IMG/VR virus record: IMGVR_UViG_3300034092_000112
Coordinates: 1-31,616 of that record
Source: a virus
Reading direction: 5' to 3' (one strand)
DNA length: 31,616 nucleotides
In this document: piece after piece, positions 1,422-19,520 of the stretch
How positions within the stretch are numbered: the first letter of the stretch is position 1
How the letters are laid out: every line of letters starts with the position of its first letter
Program-made: the position numbers and the translations under genes
Notes under the pieces: model-generated
Told to the model about the DNA's origin: nothing
The model's database searches: none
Seen by the model: only the letters and a program-made list of their open reading frames with translations

Positions 1422-1429
1422 CTATTTAT
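1422..1429 (+). promoter_or_regulatory. Candidate late promoter box CTATTTAT
   Basis: CTATTTAT in the 41-base gap before the gp14-like gene. It is one of nine copies of CTATTTA(A/C/G/T) in intergenic gaps of the late region. The box ends only five bases before the ATG at 1435, so if spacing is as in T4 late promoters the transcript would begin at or next to the start codon. Confidence 0.5.
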
Positions 1430-1434
1430 AGTAA

Positions 1435-2517
1435 ATGGCAAGAAAAAAGAAAGCAGATACCCAATGGGAGCAACCGGCTACCCCGCCACCTCCCTTATTT
1501 ACTGGTCAAAAAGAAAAAGACTTTGTTAAGCAAGTCAATGATGAACTTATTGAACGAGTTATTGGTCAACAAGTCGCTTACTTTGCTGTAGACATTGATC
1601 GCTCCTTGTTTCATCCAGTATACGGAGAAGCAATACAAAAAACATTCTTACCTCCTGTAAGAGTTCATGCGCTCGTTAAGTGGGAAGGTCAAACTAACTT
1701 ATTCACAGAAGGCTTGGGTATTGACAAAGCTACCTCAATAGAGATTCATTTTCATAAACGTAGATTGACAGAAGATCAAGATATGTTTGTCCGTGAAGGC
1801 GATTTCGTTTTATATGGTGATCGTTATTATGAAATCGTATCTCTTAGCGAACCAAGACAACTATTTGGTCAAATCGAAAGTAAGTTTGAAGTTGTAGGCA
1901 AATGTGTTAGAGCAAGAGAAGGAACATTCAACCCTCAGTTTACTGCAAATACAGTTCCACAAAGAAAAGAATATACAACATCTATAACTCCAAATGGTGG
2001 AGGAAATGGAATAGTAAGACCAAATGGTGGTGGAGGTAACACTGTTGGAGCAGGAACATTTACCAATGTAACAGTAGGAAATAATCTTATTGTCTCTGGT
2101 TCGACTTATCTAGGCGATGGTGTTGGGAATGATGTAGTTCAAGTAACAGGAAGTGTCAATATAACTGGTAGCTTATATTTAAATGGGCAACCAATAACAT
2201 ACATTTCTGTATCTGCTTCTAATCTTTCATATAATACTAGAACAATAACATCTAGTTATAACATAACACTAAACGATAACTATATCGGTGTTGATTCAAA
2301 CTATTCAAATATTATAGTAACACTTCCACCATTATCGACTGTTGAAAATGGTAGATCATATGTTGTAAAAGATGAAACTGGAAACGCTGATACGAACATA
2401 ATAACTATTTCAGCATCTGCTGGCGATTCAATCGATTTAGATACACATACGCATTTAGATATTGATTTCGTAGCAGTATCAATATACAAAAATACAAATG
2501 GGTGGCACGTATTCTAA
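1435..2517 (+). CDS. gp14-like neck protein with fibre-like C-terminal extension
   Basis: 360 residues. Residues about 30-165 can be laid beside T4 neck protein gp14 from memory. The pattern AYFAVDIDRSLFHPVYGEA (T4: YYVP...FGED) is followed by a strand-rich part and by EGDFVLYGDRYYEI, SEPRQLFGQ and ends near FNPQF, matching T4 EGDLIYFPMDNSLFEI and its downstream residues. gp14 with gp13 completes the head and docks the tail. After residue 180 the protein changes to a Gly/Asn-rich linker and a beta-rich region. It ends in the module seen in neighbouring fibre genes (ENGRSYVVKD near nt 2344 to NGWHVF). T4 gp14 is about 256 residues, so the extension is extra. The N-terminus is Lys-rich (MARKKK). 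No Shine-Dalgarno sequence precedes the ATG. Its TAA overlaps the next ATG (TAATG). Confidence 0.6.
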   Translation: MARKKKADTQWEQPATPPPPLFTGQKEKDFVKQVNDELIERVIGQQVAYFAVDIDRSLFHPVYGEAIQKTFLPPVRVHALVKWEGQTNLFTEGLGIDKATSIEIHFHKRRLTEDQDMFVREGDFVLYGDRYYEIVSLSEPRQLFGQIESKFEVVGKCVRAREGTFNPQFTANTVPQRKEYTTSITPNGGGNGIVRPNGGGGNTVGAGTFTNVTVGNNLIVSGSTYLGDGVGNDVVQVTGSVNITGSLYLNGQPITYISVSASNLSYNTRTITSSYNITLNDNYIGVDSNYSNIIVTLPPLSTVENGRSYVVKDETGNADTNIITISASAGDSIDLDTHTHLDIDFVAVSIYKNTNGWHVF

Positions 2518-2927
2518 TGGCATACAAATATAGTAAAACAAAAAAACTAGATTTAGGTACTGGTGTTGGCGTTAATCATGTTACTACGACAGTATTGTCA
2601 TCTTCAGTTCTATCTACTCAATCTACTATATTAAATAGATTAAATACTTCTTCTTCATATGTCCTACAATATACACATCACTTTATCGGAGTAGATACAG
2701 TTAATGCTACATCTTCCATAACTATAACGCTTCCAAGTGCTTCTGGTTCTACTGCTGGAAGATCATATGTTATAAAAGATGAGGGTGGAGCAGCAGACAT
2801 AAATAATATCATTATTCAAGCATCTGGTTCTAATACAGTAGATGGATTAAATGCTGTTTATATTGAGTCACCTTATGCATCAATGAACGTTTACACCGAT
2901 GGTGTAAGTAAGTGGTTCATCTACTAA
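2517..2927 (+). CDS. Small fibre/adapter-like virion protein
   Basis: 136 residues, taking the ATG inside TAATG at 2517 as the start; an upstream in-frame start at 2502 lies inside the previous gene and would add only five residues. The N-terminus MAYKYSKTKK resembles those of the next two genes (MAYKFSLGKY, MAYNFTKGPQ), suggesting a shared docking peptide. Residues about 50-136 are the C-terminal module shared with three neighbours: TITLPSASGS, GRSYVIKDEGGAAD, SGSNTVDG, ESPYASMNVY, WFIY. Almost the whole protein is thus N-peptide plus module, so it may be a minimal version of the neighbouring fibres or a cap/adapter for them. No enzymatic motif is seen. Translation is probably coupled to the gp14-like gene. 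Confidence 0.6.
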   Translation: MAYKYSKTKKLDLGTGVGVNHVTTTVLSSSVLSTQSTILNRLNTSSSYVLQYTHHFIGVDTVNATSSITITLPSASGSTAGRSYVIKDEGGAADINNIIIQASGSNTVDGLNAVYIESPYASMNVYTDGVSKWFIY

Positions 2928-2973
2928 AAAAATAAAACTTTTTATATAACATAGCTTCTTGTGTTTGTCAAGA

Positions 2974-17558: not shown

Positions 17559-19454
17559 ATGAACCTACAAGAATATAACCAAAAAATCTTACTAGAGCAC
17601 AAAAAGAAAGTAGCTACTAGAACTGATTGGCACAGCCTATTAGTTATGGAATATTGTAAACAAAACAATATCCCTCTTAACGAGGGTTTATTTGATACAA
17701 TAAGAAAAGGAATTGGTTCTGCTTGGGAAACAGGTAAATATTATGCTGGGAAAGCTGGTAGCCTTGAAAAAGGTGGTAAGATATTTGGCAGAGGAAAAGC
17801 AGAAAAAGAACTAACTGCCGAATACGAAGCAGCTGCCGAAAAATTAGCTAACTCATATATCTCTAAATGGTTTCAAGAATTTAAAGGAACATTTAAAGAA
17901 TTTCCAAACATGAAATCACAAGAAGAGTTCTTTAAAGCTGTAACCTCTATGGCTGCTGCATATGACTCAATAGTAGAAGGTGTAAAGCAAAAAAAATTAA
18001 AACCAGAAGAAGCAAATGCAATAATTGGTTCTTTGCGTTCAGTTGTTAAAGTTACACTAGACAGAGACTTAGCGGATATCTACAAGCATTTCAGAGAAAG
18101 TCTGATCAAAGAAGAGCCAGTAGATTATGCAAAAGAAACTGGTACTATGAAGGGTTTGAATAGCACAACTCTTCCAAAAGTACTAGCAGCACTAGGAGCC
18201 TTGGGTATAGGTTTCGGTTGGTTAGTAAAACAAGCATGGTTTCTCAATCTATTTAAAAGCACAAGAACCATAAGATTTATGTACAGAATATTAACTAGTG
18301 GTAGAACACTGGGAGTAACTGAGCATCTAGCAGTCCTAATGGGTTCTCCCGGTGCTAATATTTCCGGTATGGGAGTGTCCGACTTTTTAGTAAAAATGAA
18401 AGCCAATGGTTTGGTTGATGCAGCAGGAAACCCAACACCAAACTTATTGAATCTAGCTAGGGACGCTGGTAATAACGACTTTGCTAAATGGTGGGCAGAT
18501 AATCTAGCTGGCCCAGACCACGCAGGTCAAACATTAGCAGAAGCTATTCCTCTTTCCGGTGCTGGTGCTCCAATGGCTGGCGGTCAAATATTTACCAGCA
18601 CTGTAACAACCCATGTAACACCATTAATATCTGGTGGTACTTTGTCTACGGTTGGCACCGCAGTTGTAGGATTGGGTCCATTGTTGTCAACTCTTGGTAT
18701 TGGATTGGTGCTTTCTGGTGCCGCCGTATATGCACTTAGACAAAAAGGATTAAAATCTTCAAGAGCAGAACAACTTGCTACTCTATTAAATAAGATGCAA
18801 GATGTTGAAGGTTCGGGTGAAGAAACAGGACCAACACCACAACCAGAACCACAGCCAGAAGCACAACCAGAGGAAAGAACAGGACCAGAAGTTGTTATAA
18901 CTTTTGATAAACCAATTGACGAAATGGCTCTAGCATTACTTGGTGTTGCTGATAAATATCAAAGAATACCCTCAGACAGTAAGGTGAGAGCAGGAAAAAT
19001 AGGACCAAATCCAAATGGTTCCGAAGAAGAAAAAACTTTAAATAGAGAGTTCCAAAGACTCAAAAGAAAGATAGAAAGATTAATAACAAAAGAAATAGAA
19101 ACATTAATTGGTAGAAAAACAGGATATGCTTCCAATATAATGGAATCAAAAATAATTAAAGAATATTCACCTGACAATACTCAGCCAATAGTTAAAGAAA
19201 CAGATACCATTATGCAAATGATTAAAAAAGCATTTAAGTTAAAAGAGTTACCAAATAAACATGGTACAGAAGATGAAAGAAGAAAATATAGACAATATTT
19301 TCAATTAGCAGTAAAAGTTAAAAATAATGTAGTCGATGCATTAAAGTCAGATCCAGAGTTTAAAAAACTTAAACTTATTTCTTTACACGAAAAGAAAATT
19401 GTAAACGAATCCACCATGAACCGTTGGCGTTTGATTGCAGGTATTGCAAAATAA
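17559..19454 (+). CDS. Unknown virion-associated protein with two hydrophobic segments
   Basis: 631 residues, not recognised. In order: a charged N-terminus (MNLQEYNQKILLEHKKK); a helical Glu/Lys-rich region (about 80-190); a hydrophobic segment (about 205-225, LPKVLAALGALGIGFGWLV); a middle region ending in a longer hydrophobic stretch (about 362-392, GTAVVGLGPLLS then LGIGLVLSGAAVYAL); a Pro/Glu/Gln-rich linker (425-446); and a charged helical C-terminal part. The last residues, MNRWRLIAGIAK, resemble the end of the scaffold protein (RMQILAGIKK). It has its own promoter-like box and terminator. Candidates are an internal capsid protein ejected with DNA, a membrane-acting tail protein, or a second tape-measure-like protein; nothing decides between them. 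A gene here, just behind the tail-assembly pair, often encodes the tape measure. Confidence 0.6.
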   Translation: MNLQEYNQKILLEHKKKVATRTDWHSLLVMEYCKQNNIPLNEGLFDTIRKGIGSAWETGKYYAGKAGSLEKGGKIFGRGKAEKELTAEYEAAAEKLANSYISKWFQEFKGTFKEFPNMKSQEEFFKAVTSMAAAYDSIVEGVKQKKLKPEEANAIIGSLRSVVKVTLDRDLADIYKHFRESLIKEEPVDYAKETGTMKGLNSTTLPKVLAALGALGIGFGWLVKQAWFLNLFKSTRTIRFMYRILTSGRTLGVTEHLAVLMGSPGANISGMGVSDFLVKMKANGLVDAAGNPTPNLLNLARDAGNNDFAKWWADNLAGPDHAGQTLAEAIPLSGAGAPMAGGQIFTSTVTTHVTPLISGGTLSTVGTAVVGLGPLLSTLGIGLVLSGAAVYALRQKGLKSSRAEQLATLLNKMQDVEGSGEETGPTPQPEPQPEAQPEERTGPEVVITFDKPIDEMALALLGVADKYQRIPSDSKVRAGKIGPNPNGSEEEKTLNREFQRLKRKIERLITKEIETLIGRKTGYASNIMESKIIKEYSPDNTQPIVKETDTIMQMIKKAFKLKELPNKHGTEDERRKYRQYFQLAVKVKNNVVDALKSDPEFKKLKLISLHEKKIVNESTMNRWRLIAGIAK

Positions 19455-19471
19455 ATAATCTGTAGATAAGT

Positions 19472-19507
19472 AAAATCGGAGAGCACTAAGCTCTCCGATT
19501 TTGTTTT
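19472..19507 (+). terminator. Rho-independent terminator
   Basis: AAAATCGGAGAGC (19472-19484) pairs perfectly with GCTCTCCGATTTT (19490-19502) over 13 pairs around an ACTAA loop, followed by G and four T. It stands 17 bases after the stop codon of the 631-residue gene and six bases before the next promoter-like box. Confidence 0.92.
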
Positions 19508-19512
19508 ATCAT

Positions 19513-19520
19513 CTATTTAT
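19513..19520 (+). promoter_or_regulatory. Candidate late promoter box CTATTTAT, last copy seen
   Basis: CTATTTAT just after the terminator at 19472. It is the last intergenic copy in the window and would serve the run from 19535 through the baseplate genes. It ends only 14 bases before the ATG, so the leader would be very short. Confidence 0.55.

Follow-up and report, generated by a model that had tools for sequence, protein, structure and literature searches.

Late transcription in phage T4 starts from the octamer TATAAATA, with no conservation at -35 (PMC2988020), and the sigma function is split: gp55 reads the -10 element, its Tyr97 stacking on base -12 (PMC7892883), gp33 occupies the place of region 4 and contacts the DNA backbone only, and the clamp gp45 activates (PMC2988020, PMC7892883). 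Phage Aeh1 uses a variant with a/gC at -13/-12, and the same review asks why a fused late sigma has not been found (PMC2988020). A survey of jumbo phages distinguishes two kinds of phage sigma factor, a minimal one with a single helix-turn-helix and a fuller, RpoD-like one (PMC7824862). For the Far-T4 group, with Rhodothermus phage RM378 as its reference phage, the 2015 genome paper did not detect the T4 core genes of transcription regulation, and its main text does not contain the words promoter, sigma or gp55 (PMC4360716). Here we compare with these systems a box, CTATTTA (full form ACTATTTAT), that recurs between the genes of the virus contig IMGVR_UViG_3300034092_000112, the whole of which (31,616 nucleotides, 31.6 kb) is called the window below. 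In the open-access literature that we searched we found no paper that gives this box as a phage late promoter (three contain its letters but are unrelated by title), and none on the promoters of the two cultured phages that turned out to be useful for comparison, Flavobacterium phage immuto and Microcystis phage Mel-JY01.

We propose that CTATTTA is the -10 element of late promoters in the marine Far-T4 (gp23-type, T4-superfamily) lineage, where transcription of the head and tail units would begin from it; early genes and those for replication would be served by host sigma70-type promoters (TTGACA). Its most likely reader is a gp55-related sigma, encoded by the phage and bound to the host RNA polymerase, whose region-4-like C-terminal domain may read a second element, GGCTTTT, at the main head and tail promoters. 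This account as a whole appears probable to us; that the boxes are late promoters, as their sequence context suggests, we hold with high confidence, that the gp55-like protein reads them with moderate confidence, and for a reading of GGCTTTT by the modelled C-terminal domain the chances seem about even. The original prediction of a diverged late promoter served by a diverged late sigma factor is thereby the best-supported reading, with the amendments that the promoter is not always a lone -10 box and that the protein carries an extra region-4-like domain.

The window carries a gp23-type capsid gene at 8170, a tail sheath gene at 12229, and tail tube, baseplate and fibre genes, followed by genes for a DNA polymerase-like protein, a Nudix protein and a single-strand DNA-binding protein; all of its called genes lie on the + strand. 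Among named phages its capsid is nearest to those of Microcystis phage Mel-JY01 (37.5%) and RM378 (34%), which places the window with the Far-T4 group. DNA relatives of bases 1-25000 were not found among phage records.

On the + strand CTATTTA stands at 1422, 2974, 5053, 7055, 9934, 12182, 15087, 17522, 18249 and 19513, exactly the ten positions first reported, including the single copy inside a gene (18249); on the - strand it stands at 2632, 19039 and 27099, all three antisense within genes. These 13 copies compare with 8.9 expected (standard deviation 2.9), and 14 of 100 shuffles reach 13. Since the total is thus at chance level, we have dropped the overall count as evidence, and the signal lies in where the copies stand: nine of the ten + strand copies fall into gaps, which with 856 bp account for 2.7% of the window (binomial P ~8e-14), which bears out the strong enrichment that had been judged by eye. 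With a weight matrix trained on relatives only, window sites being excluded, and applied to both strands, seven of the nine gap copies are the seven best-scoring positions, 19513 ranks 9th and 1422 14th, and the in-gene copy scores -1.3.

Conservation was followed in the best 80 of a longer list of marine contigs that encode a capsid relative, with genes called by our own open reading frame rule (longest first, minimum 40-60 aa) and gap edges correspondingly approximate. In 505 same-strand gaps of these relatives (45 kb; gaps <15 bp excluded; expectation from coding density), CTATTTA is the most enriched heptamer, with 220 copies against 2.8 expected and 3 on the reverse strand (218 and 3 in a repeat run); ACTATTTA occurs 188 times against 1.5 expected, with 0 in reverse, and the lesser variants CTAATTA and CTACTTA occur 55 and 41 times. 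An equal density on the reverse strand, which the original prediction had named as evidence against itself, is therefore not seen. A reading of the box backwards as a T4 box came into consideration, since the reverse complement of TATAAATA is present in those copies that end in ATA (three antisense gap matches in the window), and was ruled out: the last A is absent from most copies, and the window's called genes are all on the + strand.

The box is also kept at orthologous positions. When CTA(T/A/C)TTA was sought within 115 nt upstream of the start, leaving out starts that did not align within 25 residues or lay <120 nt from a contig end, it was present before orthologs of the unit-starting genes 7093 (36/36), 9964 (64/68), sheath 12229 (47/47), tube 15120 (30/35) and 19535 (15/16), and absent before genes inside units, namely the capsid gene, second in its unit (0/76), and two others (0/62, 0/16). 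The reversed box was found before 0, 5, 1, 2 and 0 orthologs of these five unit-starting genes, respectively, and twice before the capsid gene. For the boxes at 2974, 5053 and 17522 zero orthologs passed the filter. The parts of the putative promoters in the window are as follows, with scores from the weight matrix.

1421..1429, + strand: TCTATTTAT copy, 13 nt before the ATG at 1435; score 6.9; box at 0/55 of the relatives' matching genes; doubtful as a promoter
2973..2981, + strand: ACTATTTAG box in the gap before gene 3052; score 18.4; zero orthologs passed the filter
5010..5041, + strand: intrinsic terminator upstream of box 5053; -23.5 kcal/mol, z -4.2
5052..5060, + strand: TCTATTTAT box before tail fibre gene 5079; score 16.3; zero orthologs passed the filter
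7034..7041, + strand: -35-like element GGATTTTT of the putative 7055 promoter; T run in 57/57 sites of its class
7054..7062, + strand: ACTATTTAT box, -10-like, opening the unit that starts with the 352-aa gene 7093, before the capsid gene; predicted +1 near 7067; score 24.4, second best in the window; box in 36/36 orthologous gaps
9893..9920, + strand: intrinsic terminator; the -35-like position of the next putative promoter coincides with its GGGG arm and its T run (9913-9920)
9933..9941, + strand: ACTATTTAC box before head-tail adaptor-like gene 9964; score 21.0; box in 64/68 orthologous gaps
12161..12168, + strand: -35-like element GGCCGTTT of the putative sheath promoter
12181..12189, + strand: ACTATTTAT box before tail sheath gene 12229; predicted +1 12194; score 24.6, the window's best; box in 47/47 orthologous gaps
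15086..15094, + strand: ACTATTTAA box before tail tube gene 15120; score 14.4; box in 30/35 orthologous gaps
17521..17529, + strand: ACTATTTAA box before gene 17559; score 10.8; without upstream element; zero orthologs passed the filter
18249..18255, + strand: in-gene CTATTTA; score -1.3; most likely a chance copy
19477..19502, + strand: intrinsic terminator upstream of box 19513; -21.2 kcal/mol, z -7.4
19512..19520, + strand: TCTATTTAT box before gene 19535; score 8.7; box in 15/16 orthologous gaps
30868..30896, + strand: sigma70-type TTGACA-17-TAATAA before the single-strand DNA-binding protein gene, by eye; without CTATTTA box

The terminators said to stand directly before 5053, 9934 and 19513 all fold strongly, that before 9934 at -24.2 kcal/mol (z -5.5). 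A ribosome-binding site and a start do follow most copies by eye, 1422 with its 13 nt to the ATG being the exception, and the division into nine late units is doubtful at this same copy, because none of the relatives' genes matching the gene after it is boxed. Sites like the tail fibre box 5053 number nine, in nine contigs, among the 336 box sites introduced below. Between box 2974 and gene 3052 lies a hairpin with a T run (2986-3028; -17.3 kcal/mol, z -4.3), which could be an attenuator or terminator within the 78-nt leader of that gene. The tail sheath protein (12229-15084) has 951 aa and exceeds the T4 sheath (gene span 98536-100515); its main sheath match starts near residue 404, and the N-terminal part may be an added domain.

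The box is specific for gene class as well as for strand. With classes assigned by homology to annotated immuto and Mel-JY01 genes, and genes with gaps <25 bp left out, CTA(T/A/C)TTA stands upstream of 169/285 virion genes (CTATTTA alone, 118) and of 0/21 replication genes (Fisher P 2e-8), the reversed box before 5 and 0, respectively; like the T4 late promoter, the box thus stands before virion units. Gaps free of the box (120 gaps in five contigs) carry CTTGACA 28 times against 1.5 expected, with 0 in reverse. Of 51 gaps in the 185-kb relative G001, 16 contain the box and 5 contain TTGAC together with a -10 of TA type; 0 contain both, an exclusion that is weak when taken alone, about 1.6 shared gaps being expected by chance; TTGAC-N15-19-TAnnwT, sought in the 16 box gaps, was found in 0/16, so that the host sigma70 promoter form is not what these gaps hold. 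This pattern fits early promoters of the host type plus a separate late class, where "late" would follow from gene function, on which the timing of transcription rests here. In the replication module of G001 a tRNA-like sequence was noted by eye in the gap before the helicase gene.

Geometry was analysed at 336 box sites in 79 contigs, nine of them from the window, limited to sites that lay within 110 nt of a start and away from the ends of contigs. Counted from the box C, +12 is a purine in 83% of the sites and +13 in 80%, compared with fractions of 0.35-0.69 for the rest of positions 7 to 29; if position 12 is taken as +1, ACTATTTA spans -13 to -6, the same place as T4 TATAAATA. The distance from box to start (25-68 nt, 10th-90th percentile, sites within 110 nt) is similar to that of 23 T4 late boxes. 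The likeness to a T4 late promoter thus includes an AT octamer of -10 type, a purine start 12-13 nt on and the distance to the start codon, and the difference lies in the sequence itself: ACTATTTA is not the T4 octamer, which occurs only once in the dominant-strand gaps of G001-G005 and the window together. The Aeh1 variant, which we write out as RCTAAATA, shares 6/8 positions with ACTATTTA. A further difference is that, unlike T4 late promoters, many marine head and tail promoters carry GGCTTTT at a constant distance, 21 to 15 nt ahead of the box C (-33 to -27); TTT stands at one offset in 169/336 sites, the maximum over 500 permutations being 53, and a T run at that offset was not seen in the 23 T4 late boxes.

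The original prediction had suggested looking for a gp55-like gene elsewhere in the genome; none is present in the window, which is a fragment, whereas one was found in related genomes. Comparison of T4 gp55 and of the RM378 sigma with the relatives' genes by phmmer and blastp gave nothing useful, and the PHROG late sigma (T4 gp55) profile, phrog_234, was therefore needed. It has one match in G001 (E 2e-5) and none in 11 other relatives' contigs. The matched protein has 229 aa and at least 596 relatives in virus contigs, 80 of which were fetched, and homologs annotated as hypothetical in immuto and Mel-JY01. Alignment A1 comprises 52 of the 80 fetched gp55-like loci plus P0002, and alignment A2 comprises 31; of the 53 aligned members, 51 are matched by phrog_234 with E no higher than 0.05 (best 7.5e-8). 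When 13 Far-T4 members were combined into a profile and aligned by hhalign with ten T4-type gp55s, residues 1-114 matched at E 2.5e-9, so that region 2 of the marine family is homologous to that of T4 gp55 and to the PHROG late sigma family, and Tyr97 of T4 gp55 aligns with an invariant Tyr93. A PDB sequence search with the family returned nothing, and Pfam Sigma70_r2, run over 15 records, matched RM378 and, weakly, T4 only.

Beyond this region the marine protein has about 100 more C-terminal residues than T4 gp55, which model like sigma region 4; nine other T4-type gp55s have 155-193 aa and no room for such a domain. In a predicted model (mean pLDDT 82) residues 14-116 fit sigmaE region 2 (Z 9.1, rmsd 2.9 over 93), and a separate model of the C-terminal 100 residues (pLDDT 88) has sigma factors in all ten of its best aligned rows, matched via their C-terminal part, with Z 5.3-7.5 (best Z 7.5, rmsd 2.7 over 74), values under about 13 being common for helical models. 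Three of these ten are 'RPSB/RPSD/RPSH' models, which from name and length we take to be Bacillus sigma B, D and H. A gp33-like fold is not among the rows shown, which excludes nothing. We regard this fold evidence as suggestive. The C-terminal end is among the best-conserved parts of the family, and no clamp-binding C-terminal motif was visible by eye in alignments A1 and A4, which both end in the region-4-like domain; a T4-like clamp-binding end is present in 4/10 aligned T4-type gp55s and missing from 6/10, and its absence therefore says little. The Far-T4 protein is fusion-like in layout, its C-terminal domain resembling region 4 in the model, without sequence similarity to gp33, and by analogy this domain would take over the region-4 and -35 functions of gp33 and gp45. 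Compared with sigma70-family factors that have regions 2 and 4, both domains are predicted in the marine protein, region 2 matching the phage gp55 profile, and the marine promoter sequence is unlike TTGACA/TATAAT.

Box and protein occur in the same lineage. Among 18 of the 80 gp55-like contigs, those >100 kb, which were searched together with two named records, 13/18 encode a capsid of the window's type (59-75% identity; immuto and Mel-JY01, about 40%), and CTATTTAT is commoner on one strand in 18/18, 203 to 26, a ratio summed by the larger strand, which inflates the bias; its strand counts are 4 and 8 in T4 and 4 and 2 in RM378. In the gaps of immuto CTATTTAT occurs 14 times against 0.2 expected, and in those of Mel-JY01 the close form ATATTTAT 17 times against 0.7 (coverage 150 of 160 kb and 150 of 190 kb, respectively, and about 142 of 169 kb for T4). 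Some ATATTTA copies in immuto belong to early promoters of another form: at 61-76 kb (L203 ~10900-26300) GTTG...TATATTTAGGTATCAATAATTAAAAC is repeated before many small genes, probably as early promoters of a Flavobacterium type. Profiles of gp33 (phrog_254) and gp45 (phrog_223), positive in T4, found none in 13 long marine contigs, immuto, Mel-JY01 and RM378, a search that may overlook diverged forms. The sigma that RM378 encodes (L119:48330-48929) has regions 2 and 4 (Sigma70_r2 4e-14) and is ECF-like in our reading; the gaps of this phage favour TTATTTAA.

Several results weigh against the proposed account. On the side of the promoter, no GGCTTTT was seen in a set of 75 sites near gp55-like genes, 25 of them with intergenic DNA upstream, about half of the set being CTAATTA variants and some possibly chance copies; TTT stands at the offset in just 6/18 intergenic sites outside the capsid region, the -35-like element is weak at tail tube and baseplate promoters, and no clear one was seen in immuto (25 sites) or Mel-JY01 (23). 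GGCTTTT as a general feature was rejected on its absence from that independent set, and our claim is limited to the main head and tail promoters of the marine group. On the side of the protein, besides the modest Z values, Foldseek gave no hit below 0.001 with either the full or the C-terminal model, single-sequence hhalign gave no result for the family against T4 gp55 or for the C-terminal domain against T4 gp33 and the RM378 sigma, and Pfam Sigma70_r2 matches 15/53 members only (best 0.02). As to the link between the two, besides the weak exclusion in G001, the window has no sigma gene by profile search (best E 1.1), and in a search of 38 of the 80 capsid contigs plus four named records the gp55-like gene was absent from 37/38, most being short fragments and two of 95 and 107 kb, with G001 as the sole one to hold it; we nevertheless infer that the window's own genome encodes such a protein. 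Furthermore, the strand bias of CTATTTAT is weak in G040, G049 and G050, a profile search for a gp55-like protein in RM378 found none, and a clamp loader subunit is annotated in Mel-JY01, which leaves room for a diverged clamp.

These points have to be set against what other explanations would predict. GGCTTTT could be the tail of upstream terminators at a fixed packing distance, with the C-terminal domain a gp33-like polymerase binder without -35 specificity and the box still a gp55-type -10 element. Such an arrangement would accommodate the terminator-like hairpins at 81/336 sites, 40/81 of which end 13-17 nt before the box, the lack of GGCTTTT away from the head and tail cluster, and the 'other' and 9964 classes, in which roughly every second site with a T run reaches a folding energy of -8 kcal/mol or better (28/45 and 26/58). 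It does not explain the 7093 and 12229 classes, the two best-sampled of the hairpin-poor ones, where the T run is kept in 108/115 sites and just 7/108 fold to that extent (4/57 in the 7093 class), nor the fixed offset, which T4 late boxes do not share. Because the T run is kept in hairpin-free classes, GGCTTTT is not merely a terminator tail there, and we did not accept it as a terminator remnant only; the arrangement as a whole seems rather unlikely to us. It was observed, however, that in part of the 336 sites the 3' arm and T run of a terminator coincide with the -35-like position, and one stretch may thus serve both as terminator and as promoter element.

A reading of the box by a housekeeping or alternative sigma factor of the host would be in keeping with the want of a sigma gene in the window, and yet it is improbable: box-free gaps carry TTGACA-type promoters instead, the box is confined to virion units among the genes classed, and immuto early promoters differ, having a GTTG/TATATTTAG form. 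In addition, the box occurs in a Flavobacterium phage and in a close form in a Microcystis phage, and these hosts from different phyla argue for a phage-borne reader. We discarded the Bacteroidetes-type promoter, TTTG/TAnnTTTG, as a reading of the window's box; promoters of that type do occur elsewhere in immuto. A signal that acts after transcription or at the level of DNA, such as for RNA processing, replication or packaging, might be suspected from the frequent position of the box after a terminator, the more so as its promoter role is deduced from sequence; the directionality, the -10 spacing to a purine, the T4-like distance to starts and the position at unit starts leave such a role very little room. 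That the window's total does not exceed its shuffles would suit a chance or composition artefact of AT-rich gaps, an explanation already refuted by the strand and ortholog tests and retaining practically no probability.

Taken together, we put forward the gp55-related protein as a candidate fused late sigma. That Far-T4 phages use such a one-piece factor, a gp55-type domain with its own region 4, on two-element promoters (GGCTTTT, then ACTATTTAT) is a tentative proposal, to which we would give slightly less than an even chance. If it is true, Far-T4 late transcription would need neither gp33 nor the replication clamp, and the split, clamp-driven system of T4 would represent no more than a single branch of the T4 superfamily. 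Phages of the Far-T4 group are common in water, the question of the fused sigma can now be tested in two cultured phages, immuto and Mel-JY01, and the box allows late units to be predicted directly from metagenome contigs.

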